Source of the DNA: a virus
IMG/VR virus record: IMGVR_UViG_3300037246_001346
Location: 1 to 52,911 of that record
Direction: 5' to 3' (one strand)
DNA: 52,911 bases
Position numbers and translations under genes: made by a program. Below, piece by piece: positions 11,111 through 52,911 of this stretch. Each line of letters opens with the position of its first letter. Within the stretch, counting starts at the first letter, position 1. A model generated the notes under the pieces. It was not told the origin of the DNA. It made no database searches and worked only from the letters and a program-made list of their open reading frames with translations.

Positions 11111-11302
11111 CTACTTACCCGATTTTAGTTCTTTTCTATAATGAATATCCCTGATTCCTGTTCCGATCTCAACACCGCTTCCCATAAAAGTTAATCCATA
11201 TTTCTCAGCAAGTTTTTCAATCTCCTTATCAAAATCAGAATTTATTGTTGGAGTTGTAGAACCTGGAGAACTATTTTGATAATAAATTTTTAAATCTTTC
11301 AT
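11111..11302 (-). CDS. Hypothetical protein, 63 aa, last gene of leftward arm
   Basis: Start chosen at the second ATG (11302), because the upstream ATG at 11314 lies within the ribosome binding site GGGAGGTAAT. The product (MKDLKIYYQNSSPGS...) has a helical, acidic middle and ends -KSGK*, encoded by the gene-end word AAATCGGG of this region. Its stop touches the terminase stop on the other strand. Function unknown; the fold could be a small alpha/beta domain. Confidence 0.6.
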   Translation of the reverse strand: MKDLKIYYQNSSPGSTTPTINSDFDKEIEKLAEKYGLTFMGSGVEIGTGIRDIHYRKELKSGK

Positions 11303-11360
11303 ATTACCTCCCATTGGTGGGTGAGGGGTATGTAATTAGCGCAATTTACATCCCCCCGTT

Positions 11361-11404
11361 AGGTCAAAAAACGTCTTTCTTGACCTCGGCACCCCACCAT
11401 GCCG
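11361..11404 (-). promoter_or_regulatory. Two adjacent hairpins in the leader of the terminal gene
   Basis: Within the ~108-base gap between two genes, AGGTCAA (11361-11367) pairs with TTGACCT (11380-11386), and CGGCA (11387-11391) pairs with TGCCG (11400-11404). Neither hairpin is followed by a T run on the transcribed strand, so a leader structure or binding site is more likely than a simple terminator. Confidence 0.4.
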
Positions 11405-11409
11405 TGTAT

Positions 11410-18724: not shown

Positions 18725-18985
18725 TTATGTCCCTATTACAGATATTCCTATCGTAGCCTCGCCACCTTTTTGGTGTTTGTGCGCCTTGAGGATAGTTCCT
18801 GTCCTGTGCATTTCCTTATTCAATTTTTCAACCTCTTTTTCTAATCCTTGTATCTTTTCCTCTATGTATGCGAATGGAGTTCTCTCATCAATCTCATCTA
18901 TCAATTCACCAAATAATACATCGTCATCTCCCGTATCTTCAACCTTGTCTAGTAATTGAGATGTTTTTAATTTTTTTATATCCAT
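18725..18985 (-). CDS. Acidic coiled-coil protein, 86 aa
   Basis: Acidic N-terminal half (VEDTGDDDVLFGELIDEIDE) and heptad-rich second half (EEKIQGLEKEVEKLNKEMH). Ribosome binding site GGAGG lies inside a small upstream frame (18987-19013). Not recognised. Confidence 0.55.
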   Translation of the reverse strand: MDIKKLKTSQLLDKVEDTGDDDVLFGELIDEIDERTPFAYIEEKIQGLEKEVEKLNKEMHRTGTILKAHKHQKGGEATIGISVIGT

Positions 18986-18986
18986 T

Positions 18987-19013
18987 TTAACCTCCTAGGT
19001 TATTTTGTGGCAT
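18987..19013 (-). other. Upstream mini-frame MPQNNLGG*
   Basis: Eight codons whose last part (GGAGGTTAA) is the ribosome binding site of the following gene. The ATG lies in the left direct repeat of the structured element at 19002-19146. Confidence 0.35.
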
Positions 19014-19146
19014 TTTAGTTCTGCTCTGAATGAGGGTTTCATGGTGTCTAACGAAGGAGCCCACGAACGTCATTGGTTCGTTGCGGGCCTTACAGCCCAC
19101 CTTCTTTGGTTATAAGTCACCAATTCACCCTCATTTTGTGGCATTT
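19002..19146 (-). ncRNA. Candidate structured RNA element flanked by direct repeats
   Basis: A 14-base direct repeat (ATTTTGTGGCATTT) lies at 19002-19015 and 19133-19146. Inside it, AATGAGGGT (19029-19037) pairs with ACCCTCATT (19127-19135), GGTG (19043-19046) with CACC (19118-19121), GAAGG (19053-19057) with CCTTC (19100-19104), ACGAAC (19063-19068) with GTTCGT (19076-19081), and GGGC (19085-19088) with GCCC (19095-19098). GGGC can also pair with GCCC at 19059-19062, an alternative state. No coding frame explains this nested pattern. Confidence 0.5.
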
Positions 19147-19835
19147 AATTCCTCATATAATTTATCTATTAAATCAAAGACATAATCAAAAATCTGGTTC
19201 TTATAGAGACAAAGGAAACTATCCACACCTATCCCATGCAGTTCCCTAATATGACATTCATGACATAAGGGCAGAAGATGAGAAGAAAGACCGCCAGCCT
19301 TATCAGTCCTTGGAAAATGAGCTTTTTCGCTCTTCCTTTTCTCATGAAATATACAACTATGTTCTCCCACGTAATCTGTATAATTTTTATTTATTCCCCG
19401 TTGCACCTCCTTTTGTGCTGGCATAGGCTGGCGACCCTTCTCTTTGCGTATCTGGTTAAGAAGGTCTTTATATGACCATGTTTTTGCTCGTGAGAGCCAC
19501 TCTACGGGGTCTTTATCAACAAAAGGTAGTATTAGCTGTAGTCTTTTATGCCCAATTTCTGCGAGATACCCGACATCGTAGTTGAGTTCTTCCACGTATT
19601 TCTCAAATAACCTAATATATGAGTAGCAAGTAGATCGGGCAAATCCAATTTCAGGCATAGCTAAGAACTCATTAAAACTACCACACTCTGAATCAAGGTG
19701 TTTAAAAAGTTTCTTATCCCTTATCTGCTTGAACAAATGCCCGAGGTAAATAACTCGGTTAGTTTCGGCAGACTTGGCTTCTACGATTTTGGTGTACAGG
19801 TCAAAGGCTACGTCAGCTTTCTCTGCTTTGTTCAC
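19131..19835 (-). CDS. HNH-type nuclease with N-terminal DNA-binding segment
   Basis: The 234-residue protein has a helical N-terminal half containing FNEFLAMPEIGFARSTCYSY, similar to helix-turn-helix segments of phage DNA-binding proteins. In the C-terminal half, CIFHEKRKSEKAHFPRTDK, then HLLPLCHECHIRELHG, resembles the His/Cys layout of HNH nucleases. The last codons (NATK*) are the right direct repeat of the structured element. Role in DNA processing is inferred. Confidence 0.55.
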   Translation of the reverse strand: MNKAEKADVAFDLYTKIVEAKSAETNRVIYLGHLFKQIRDKKLFKHLDSECGSFNEFLAMPEIGFARSTCYSYIRLFEKYVEELNYDVGYLAEIGHKRLQLILPFVDKDPVEWLSRAKTWSYKDLLNQIRKEKGRQPMPAQKEVQRGINKNYTDYVGEHSCIFHEKRKSEKAHFPRTDKAGGLSSHLLPLCHECHIRELHGIGVDSFLCLYKNQIFDYVFDLIDKLYEELNATK

Positions 19836-20108
19836 TTATTTGCCCCGATTTCGTGTTCTCCCATGTAATAAATCATGATATCCCGTTGTTACTAAAGCTA
19901 GATTGAGAATATAATTGTTGCGTATATTTCCGTCAACATGATGTACCTCATAATTAGCTGGAATATCTTGCCTCCAATATCGTATCCAATTTGTTTTTGC
20001 CCTCACCCCAAGATTTCTACGTCTTTTTTGTCGCCCATTTCTTTTACTCGATTTATATTCAATGTGCCCATAACGCTCCCTGAGAATTAATTCCCACTTC
20101 TCACGCAT
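19836..20108 (-). CDS. HNH homing-type endonuclease, 90 aa
   Basis: The motif YEVHHVDGNIRNNYILNL (about residues 53-70) followed by a final His in YHDLLHG is a standard HNH_3 site. The basic N-terminal half would contact DNA. The ATG at 20108 is preceded by AGAAGG, so I prefer it to the GTG two codons earlier. It ends -NRGK*, from the gene-end word, and a perfect TGTCTA-N6-TAGACA palindrome (20119-20136) lies just upstream. Confidence 0.75.
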   Translation of the reverse strand: MREKWELILRERYGHIEYKSSKRNGRQKRRRNLGVRAKTNWIRYWRQDIPANYEVHHVDGNIRNNYILNLALVTTGYHDLLHGRTRNRGK

Positions 20109-20118
20109 TATCACCTTC

Positions 20119-21384: not shown

Positions 21385-22067
21385 TTCCCCTCCAAGACAT
21401 ATTTTTCCCACCTTCTTGCTATTGCCACGCCTACCTCGGCATCGTTTTCATTCTCAAGCCTCATCCCACTACCCACGGCCTTCACACAACATTCTCTGAT
21501 AATGTGAACATCCTTAGTGGTCATGTCTACTGTGGTAGACGGGACAGGCTTCATTTCTACCCTTGACTCTTCCTCAACCGACCTATTAATTAATTCTTCT
21601 TGGCTAAGTTCGCTTAGTTCTTTTCTGGAAAGGTCTTTTAAATCTGGTGGTCGTGGTTCTTTTTCAAGCATCCTCTCTACCTCTGCTTCGGGGCTATCCT
21701 TGGGTCGTTGGTCAGATGATGGTTCATCTGGTGGCTTTAAGTCCGCATTCACATCTACATCGGGTACTTTTAACTGGATATTGTTTATGTTCAAAAATCC
21801 CTTCTCGGTTTTGAATATCTCCACCTCGACTTCCGAGCCTTTTTCTATTACCTTACATGCCTGAAATACTTCGGGGGCACTTTGTTCAAAAGCACTTACC
21901 CAGACATCACCCTTTTTGTACCCACCCTTCTTAAGTAGTTCCCAGTCTGTCCATTGTTTCCAGTCCCCCTCGTTAGAGAAAAACGTAGTATTCTCCAGCA
22001 AGACAGAAACGCGGGCATCCTTAAACGTGACAGCTTTTATTGTTCCGTTAAATCTATACTGTGGCAT
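21381..22067 (-). CDS. OB-fold protein, probable single-stranded DNA-binding protein
   Basis: The 228-residue product has an N-terminal ~100-residue beta domain (FNGTIKAVTFKDARVSVLLE ... EVEVEIFKTEKGFLNINNIQL) with the strand pattern of an OB fold. It is followed by a long acidic, Pro-rich linker and a helical C-terminal domain. The layout and its position next to the exonuclease suggest an SSB-like role. The typical acidic tip of SSB is absent; the acidic part is internal. Confidence 0.55.
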   Translation of the reverse strand: MPQYRFNGTIKAVTFKDARVSVLLENTTFFSNEGDWKQWTDWELLKKGGYKKGDVWVSAFEQSAPEVFQACKVIEKGSEVEVEIFKTEKGFLNINNIQLKVPDVDVNADLKPPDEPSSDQRPKDSPEAEVERMLEKEPRPPDLKDLSRKELSELSQEELINRSVEEESRVEMKPVPSTTVDMTTKDVHIIRECCVKAVGSGMRLENENDAEVGVAIARRWEKYVLEGK

Positions 22068-22082
22068 CTTCTAAACCTCCTT

Positions 22083-22099
22083 GCCCGCTATATGCGGGC
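22083..22099 (-). promoter_or_regulatory. Hairpin GCCCGC-TATAT-GCGGGC upstream of the OB-fold gene
   Basis: A 6-base-pair, GC-rich perfect stem with a 5-base loop, built from the regional word TGCCCGC and its complement. It lies 16 bases before the OB-fold start and could act as a leader hairpin or binding site. Confidence 0.45.
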
Positions 22100-22409
22100 A
22101 TCTTATAGTCTATTCTTCTTTCACGGGTACGTCAAGAACTTTCTTTATAGAACACACCCACCTAGGGAAAAAGGAGTTGATGCCCCAAGGTGGACTGTTC
22201 GGAGCACCTGTAAAACCCTTCGATGAGTGTGTCTTGTAGACAGTTGTGGACGTTTGATGACACTCGTAGAAAGCATGACGACAAACTGTAGACACTTTCT
22301 TAAACATCTCCCCCCGAGAACACCCCACGCGCACAGGTGCGTGCGTATAAAGAATATAAGAATATTATATAAAGACTAAGTACTAAAACCTTTCTCATAA
22401 AGGGACGCA
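22100..22409. other. Gene-poor gap, candidate replication origin
   Basis: This 310-base gap has no convincing gene. It holds four phased GTAGA/GTGGA boxes (22236, 22246, 22266, 22288), a GC-rich imperfect hairpin (around 22328-22346), and a strongly AT-rich tract (about 22347-22388). Repeated binding boxes followed by an AT-rich segment are the classic layout of an initiator-dependent origin. The array matches one inside the replication ATPase gene. The reading frame at 22110-22334 has unusual composition and is probably not translated. Confidence 0.45.
22234..22294. repeat. Phased GTAGA boxes (array B)
   Basis: Boxes start at 22236, 22246 (GTGGA), 22266 and 22288, steps of 10, 20 and 22 bases. 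Flanking bases also match array A (CTGTAGACA at the right edge; TTTGA-GAC between boxes). Confidence 0.5.
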
Positions 22410-38097: not shown

Positions 38098-38111
38098 TTT
38101 ATGGGAATAGT

Positions 38112-38207
38112 AGGGATTAGCAAGATAATCCCTTAGTAAAAAAATTGGGGAGTCGCTTTTTATATATATTGTCCCTAGGGACTTTCTTGGAAGGGAGTGG
38201 CTCCCTT
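38112..38207 (+). terminator. Three consecutive hairpins after the capsid gene
   Basis: AGGGATTA/TAATCCCT (38112-38133, 6-base loop), GTCCC-TA-GGGAC (38171-38182) and AAGGGAG/CTCCCTT (38191-38207, 3-base loop). None has a long T run directly after it, so they may protect or process the capsid mRNA as well as slow transcription. Confidence 0.45.
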
Positions 38208-38233
38208 TACTACAAATTTAATGGAGGAAAAAT

Positions 38234-52308: not shown

Positions 52309-52911
52309 GCGTAGCGCGCATAAAAGACATACCTTACCCCGAGGATTTGCACGGAGTTCCCGAGATAAAGGAATACCTCAAGAGACTTTACACTGCATTA
52401 CAGGAAGAACAGTCGGAGAAGATAGAGGATTTTGATGTCTTGAAAATGGATAATGTTGGCTGGGAAGATGTTCGGGCATATGCAAATAATACAAACAAAC
52501 AAGATGGACTAGCCAATGCAATTAGTAAAATTGGCTCTACGGAAACAACGCTACTTATCCCCAACCAACAGGATGTAACCGCTAACGCTACTGTTCCCGC
52601 AAATGTTACTTTGTGGTTTTTACGGGGTGGTTCAATCAATGTGGGTGCCTTTGATTTGGATATTAATGGTAGAATAATAAACCCAGACAACCATTATATT
52701 CTTATTAAAAACAGTACTGGAACTTGGGCAATAAACAGGATACAGCAGCAAAACATGAATATATTATGGACTGGAGCTGCTGGATACGAAATTGACTCAA
52801 CTGCAGCTGCTCAAATAACTGCTGGTGCCTCTTCTGCGACTGTAGTGGATTCTACGGGATTTTCTCCTGGCATGGGGTTTAGAATATATGGGGCTGGCGT
52901 AGCAGATCGGA
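52305..52911 (+). CDS. Tailspike, N-terminal part (cut by window end)
   Basis: Starts with ATG at 52305, overlapping the stop of the previous tail gene (ATGA). The first ~60 residues are charged and helical, a likely particle-binding segment. A region around TLLIPNQQDVTANATVP and TLWFLRGGSINVG follows, which is the usual entry into a pectate-lyase-like beta-helix. The frame stays open to base 52903 and continues at base 1. The last codons at 52904-52911 are adapter sequence and not part of the protein. Confidence 0.85.
   Translation, partial: MSVARIKDIPYPEDLHGVPEIKEYLKRLYTALQEEQSEKIEDFDVLKMDNVGWEDVRAYANNTNKQDGLANAISKIGSTETTLLIPNQQDVTANATVPANVTLWFLRGGSINVGAFDLDINGRIINPDNHYILIKNSTGTWAINRIQQQNMNILWTGAAGYEIDSTAAAQITAGASSATVVDSTGFSPGMGFRIYGAGVADR
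52778..52903. repeat. Circular assembly overlap, right copy
   Basis: Exact copy of bases 1-126. Base 52904 departs from the expected sequence (position 127 is C, here A) where adapter sequence begins. Confidence 0.93.
52904..52911. other. Probable sequencing adapter remnant
   Basis: The last eight bases, AGATCGGA, equal the first eight bases of the widely used Illumina adapter that starts AGATCGGAAGAGC. They replace the phage sequence expected from position 127 onward, so they are most likely not biological. Confidence 0.85.

Follow-up and report, generated by a model that had tools for sequence, protein, structure and literature searches.

Behind a nuclease-like gene of a phage we find a strongly folded element whose minus strand resembles the DUF3800-VII RNA, and the reading that we put forward, tentatively and with a confidence slightly short of even, is that it is a divergent RNA of this type, inserted behind the nuclease gene and most likely acting in trans on a DUF3800 protein of the host or of a prophage. 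The window, i.e., the whole stretch of 52,911 nucleotides that was analysed, is a phage record whose two ends overlap exactly over 126 bases (1-126 and 52778-52903), and the record is therefore probably a complete genome. The element had been pointed out in an initial annotation as a nested, possibly two-state RNA structure. That observation is confirmed and its interpretation partly supported; the minus strand of the element may well give a structured RNA.

A folded element between two minus-strand genes

The five stems, the flanking repeats and the GGGC and GCCC segments named in the initial annotation are all present, and they are located, together with the parts recognised since, as follows:

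19131-19835, minus strand: nuclease-like gene P0001, upstream of the element (234 aa; weak HNH/DUF968 matches)
18725-18985, minus strand: gene P0002, downstream of the element (86 aa; no convincing family)
19133-19146, plus strand: direct repeat copy 1, ATTTTGTGGCATTT, within the terminal part of the nuclease gene P0001
19002-19015, plus strand: direct repeat copy 2, ATTTTGTGGCATTT, immediately ahead of the P0002 ribosome site
19016-19132, no strand assigned: 117-base insert, enclosed by the repeat copies (49.6% G+C against 40.8% in the window; junction empty in the relative G001)
19029-19135, minus strand: structured element resembling DUF3800-VII RNA, outer stem arms included (matched by Rfam over 19133-19026)
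19029-19037 and 19127-19135: arms of the closing stem, AATGAGGGT and ACCCTCATT, seen in the sequence
19085-19088 (GGGC), 19095-19098 and 19059-19062 (GCCC): segments with alternative pairing
19053-19104, minus strand: core of the element, delimited by the MFE helices and by agreement with near-invariant family columns
19104-19100/19057-19053, minus strand: stem P3 of the core
19098-19094/19089-19085, minus strand: hairpin P4 of the core
19081-19076/19068-19063, minus strand: hairpin P5 of the core
19064 down to 19056, minus strand: core motif GTGGGCTCC, after P5

Over 145 nt the element folds to -44.1 kcal/mol on the minus strand and to -47.5 kcal/mol on the plus strand (z -3.63 and -3.70), and its inner 117 nt give z -3.06 and -2.99. 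In each of these four tests none of the 200 dinucleotide shuffles matched it, so that the comparison with shuffled controls, proposed initially as a check, speaks for the fold on each strand. When 1760 overlapping 120-nt segments of the window are ranked, the element comes third (minus) and second (plus) by raw energy, and 7th and 9th by composition-corrected energy: the fold is strong, yet not unique in the window. The earlier statement that nothing like it occurs at other junctions does not hold, since the stretches 11303-11409 and 22068-22409 are likewise strongly folded, though unlike the element in sequence.

The first of these stretches is a junction of 107 nt upstream of a 67-aa gene (11111-11314). 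The second lies between two minus-strand genes and comprises a 74-aa frame that may not be real; 22050-22270 (221 nt) folds to -69.5 kcal/mol on the minus strand. A further folded junction, on the plus strand at 38098-38233, is found inside a long alignment to G001.

As to the mutually exclusive folds proposed initially, the GGGC segment can indeed pair with either GCCC segment, but the second pairing is weak: on the minus strand it reaches a probability of about 6% against some 94% for the main fold, the two states lying 2.0 kcal/mol apart, and on the plus strand 1.5%. An attenuator or a riboswitch, which had been suggested from these folds, needs exclusive folds that alter a terminator or a ribosome site. 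No terminator-like site was found at the element, which argues also against a terminator as such, and the ribosome site of P0002 is predicted to lie in its own small hairpin, with near-equal pairing whether the leader is complete, shortened (six forms) or deprived of the element. Furthermore, the main fold, and not the alternative one, corresponds to the conserved fold of the DUF3800-VII family, and a gathering-level cmscan of the window yielded no family at its gathering score. With a minor second state, no terminator and an unaffected ribosome site, these predictions leave the attenuator or riboswitch unsupported. More broadly, a role in cis on the flanking genes, be it that of one of these or of an RNase III processing site, appears quite improbable on the same three grounds, even if the element does lie between two same-strand genes, an alternative pairing exists and long imperfect stems can serve as RNase III sites.

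Several other candidates were considered and rejected. Of the two arms, one fits the R box of an integron attC site and the other does not, and a translational bypass such as that of T4 gene 60 would add no residue upon landing. A 24-aa frame starting in repeat copy 1, which could be taken for a leader peptide, finds no convincing counterpart in either the window or G001. As for a promoter, there is one promoter-like site at 19013-18984, the region holding 6 such sites against 5.4 expected.

Likely insertion with duplication of the gene tail

The sole relative found is the 44,245-base record IMGVR_UViG_3300038678_000102 (G001), which carries an orthologous nuclease (68% identity) and many matching segments elsewhere. 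Its nuclease gene ends with ACCACGAAATAG and is directly followed by the next gene's ribosome site, without the element. Indeed, once the element and one repeat copy are taken out, the window aligns to this junction with small gaps, whereas the unaltered window does not. It is thus likely that the element was gained by insertion with duplication of the tail of the nuclease gene, because G001 has the same gene end without the element. This agrees with the initial annotation, which had taken the right repeat copy for the end of the nuclease gene and the element for an insertion. Apart from this 14-base repeat, the window has no exact repeat of at least 14 bases whose copies lie within 200 bases, and among 60 simulated genomes a single one contained such a repeat. 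The insertion preserved the protein end of P0001, a TGA standing behind copy 1 and a TAA behind copy 2.

The gene behind the junction differs between the two phages: in G001 it encodes 53 aa, its relative in the window standing at 11111-11314 (E 8e-14), and P0002 was not found in G001. This points to a junction region that is reshuffled between them, and the element may have arrived as part of a larger event.

No second copy of the element was detected in the window or in G001. When the nuclease, the portal protein and a helicase-like neighbour served as queries for relatives, either none or G001 alone was recovered; BLAST of the element gave no match against phages and merely three 23-base matches at E 4 against plasmids. 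Patterns made of pieces of the element hit 1, 42 and 4 loci in viral contigs, in none of which the rest of the element occurred, and a 20-mer of the element was met at two loci of genome contigs, with unrelated flanks.

P0001 itself has weak family matches: DUF968 (E 0.084), an HNH endonuclease PHROG (E 0.012) and, over its N-terminal part, an uncharacterised PHROG (E 0.00017). Directly upstream, at 19836-20114, stands an HNH_3 gene (E 1.9e-8), a clear counterpart of which is absent from G001.

Likeness to the DUF3800-VII family

In a lax Rfam scan of 147 bases, the minus strand of the element matches DUF3800-VII (RF02967, listed as sRNA) over the full model with 27.5 bits, and this is its sole match better than E 1. 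The E value is 0.00081 over all 4227 families, and the gathering score of 36.2 is not reached. Other scans disagree: a lax scan of 351 bases returned four matches at E 3.8 to 7.2, RF02967 not among them, and a search of the window's own record with the RF02967 family, up to E 10, gave no match, which we counted against the identification. The scans differ because, according to the description of the tool, the filters become laxer as less sequence is submitted; scans with default filters miss the element. In lax control scans, the folded stretch 22068-22409 (342 bases) reached at best E 0.58 and 38098-38233 at best E 2.3, and 11303-11409 had no match up to E 10. How high chance scores rise in about a billion bases is shown by a false match of the RF02967 model at 31.2 bits, found among 299 genomes inside a protein gene (L074) which, by eye, we take to be fliR.

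Three models of our own were built without the window from 6 (R1), 8 (R2) and 12 (R3) true members and run with filters off. The false match L074 and the sub-threshold loci L067 and L068 were left out of them; L084, which repeats L083, was omitted from A8 and A9. The element was the top match of each: 18.4 bits and E 0.037 with R1 (next 10.7; 77,912 bases, i.e., the window and part of G001), 19.1 bits and E 0.06 with R2 (no other match up to E 10) and 20.2 bits and E 0.034 with R3 (next 10.0), the last two over the 97,157 bases of the window and all of G001. Chance matches of R1 went up to 14.5 bits in a cellular locus, and the best score of R2 was 12.9 bits in 437,638 bases of viral contigs (default filters).

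The structure of the family is well supported, 21 of its 28 pairs being changed on both sides, a value that none of 500 shuffles attained. The element agrees with the family at 11 of the 14 columns that are invariant in all 12 members, among them GTGGG, and at 16 of the 28 columns that are identical in at least 11 of the 12 (10/14 in the core, 6/14 outside it); in an 8-member alignment the agreement amounts to 19 of 39 columns (core 10/15, lower part 5/19). Moreover, GTGGGCTCCTTC is common to the element and to one member (L075), at the same place. The P3-P4-P5 fold with the conserved core letters is present, and the same helices form in the unconstrained fold. As to the P2 stem with its GCGC..GGGG motif, its columns are deleted or changed in the element, which has extra stems. 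The Rfam model and our own models pair different outer stems with P1.

Altogether, the element shares with the DUF3800-VII RNA the P3-P4-P5 core, the GCA between the hairpins, the GUGGG.UC after them and an outer closing stem. It differs in lying below the gathering score, in lacking the P2 motif and in having extra outer stems, as well as in its 14-base flanking repeats and in the absence of a DUF3800 gene, either adjoining or elsewhere in the phage. We regard it as DUF3800-VII-like and not as a member, an identity which these comparisons support moderately. The covariance search suggested initially thus produced a family match for the element itself, but no intermediates between it and RF02967 in the phages or viral contigs searched: a strict pattern of the family core had no match in viral contigs, three true RNAs, compared with phages by BLAST, had none or short matches at E 1 or worse, and one compared with plasmids had none.

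An unrelated inserted palindrome, MITE-like or born of template switching, could in principle resemble the family by chance. Nearly all pairs are of the Watson-Crick type (the 36 pairs on the minus strand include a single G-T), and the plus and minus strands give similar folds, as expected of a DNA palindrome; the Rfam score falls short of the cut-off; and a 14-base repeat flanks the element, compared with no flanking repeat above chance in any of the eight true members tested. We nevertheless hold this explanation unlikely, given that the element always came top with three models trained without it and that unpaired letters conserved in the family recur at their proper positions. As regards a MITE, the 14-base repeat and the empty junction of G001 have the appearance of a target site duplication, but the stem ends do not coincide with the repeats as terminal inverted repeats would, the left arm beginning 13 bases inside the insert and the right arm entering the repeat, and the element has a single copy in the window, none in G001 and none among the viral contigs scanned for its pieces.

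The main rival accepts the likeness to DUF3800-VII and sees in the element a relic or passenger, acquired by recombination with host or prophage DNA and functionless in the phage, which we consider possible though rather doubtful. It would accord with an insertion bearing a short repeat, with the absence of the element from the sole relative found and with the loss of the P2 motif; however, the core motif GTGGGCTCC and the folded core were retained while the lower parts changed, and the fold is still strong.

DUF3800 genes and a possible role in trans

Members above the cut-off were found in 1/299, 4/299, 2/154, 2/12, 4/369 and 2/17 genomes of overlapping sets, corresponding to ten different genomes; a phage and a plasmid were then reached by way of the DUF3800 protein (a second plasmid having the same sequence), giving 12 distinct loci. 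At nine of these 12 a DUF3800 gene adjoins the RNA, tail to tail in every case:

G022, G415, G424, G509, G1041 and G1101: DUF3800 gene by PF12686 match
G960: DUF3800 gene, the protein being 53% identical to that of G022 (Pfam silent at E 0.0001)
Rhizobium phage RHph_TM3_3_3 and a Cupriavidus plasmid: DUF3800 gene by annotation

PF12686 is absent from the whole genomes of G550 and G623, both of which carry a true RNA, and no PF12686 match occurs in the window phage or in G001.

Neighbouring genes were picked by eye and then scanned at some of the 12 loci, a choice that gives no rate of defence neighbours. They include type I restriction genes around the locus of G022, a nearby Mrr-type enzyme in G415, HmaB-, HmaC-, DarG- and AbiL-like proteins in G814 and an SspH-like, FtsK-like protein in G960. 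In G623, the contig of the RNA carries a serine recombinase, a CI-type repressor, an FtsK-like protein, a replication-relaxation protein and an amidase. PADLOC had no match for the three DUF3800 proteins submitted. From the neighbours we infer that DUF3800 and the DUF3800-VII RNA may form a defence system. DUF3800 is described as having an RNase H fold and a link to putative ncRNAs (PMC10910872), and as a nuclease with this fold that occurs in some CRISPR loci (PMC12669027); the descriptions of DUF3800 consulted give no function for the protein/RNA pair. DUF3800 together with phage defence does not appear in the literature searched, which covered few subscription papers and preprints.

In the reading that we favour, a DUF3800-VII-type RNA would have been inserted behind the nuclease gene, duplicating 14 bases of its tail, and would be transcribed along with the surrounding minus-strand genes. 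Its RNA would bind in trans a DUF3800 protein of the host or of a prophage, and would compete with the native RNA of that protein, much as is the case for pseudo-ToxI and Racr RNAs in other systems. The strand that matches RF02967 is that of the flanking genes. An RNA acting as decoy or substitute for the partner RNA of a host DUF3800 protein is the reading that makes use of all the facts, the strand and the missing PF12686 among them, and it has precedents.

These precedents concern the mechanism alone. The pseudo-ToxI RNA of phage TE mutants is a phage RNA that replaces the RNA partner of the defence protein of ToxIN, and one mutant acquired natural repeats by recombination (PMC5086642); ToxI is, however, a repeat array with a known toxin. 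Similarly, Racr RNA-based anti-CRISPRs are described as solitary viral copies of the RNA of a defence system (PMC10651486), yet they mimic CRISPR repeats and the element resembles a DUF3800-associated RNA.

A wider proposal seems to us doubtful: DUF3800 and the DUF3800-VII RNA would constitute an RNA-controlled defence of cells, plasmids and prophages, other phages would carry orphan RNA decoys, and the element would be one such decoy, captured. If true, this would be an RNA-based counter-defence outside CRISPR and ToxIN, as well as an example of a short insertion by which a phage acquires an RNA of this kind. Neither the candidate DUF3800 RNAs nor the protein beside them has an assigned function. 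Besides the orphan phage copy, true copies occur among restriction genes, on an integrated element and in a phage; together they point to defence or counter-defence, which is testable by simple co-expression.

Some of the loci deserve mention in their own right. In G814 (L091, 6119-6205) a true RNA stands between the HmaC- and HmaB-like defence genes with no DUF3800 gene in sight, none being recognised among the listed frames of at least 90 aa in 12 kb. Mycobacterium phage Mask (L081) has a DUF3800-like gene beside immunity repressor, IrrE-like and integrase genes, and no DUF3800-VII RNA was found near it. In Rhizobium phage RHph_TM3_3_3, the DUF3800-VII RNA (L082, 3328-3416; 50.1 bits), absent from the listed annotated features, and the DUF3800 gene adjoin a repressor-like gene.
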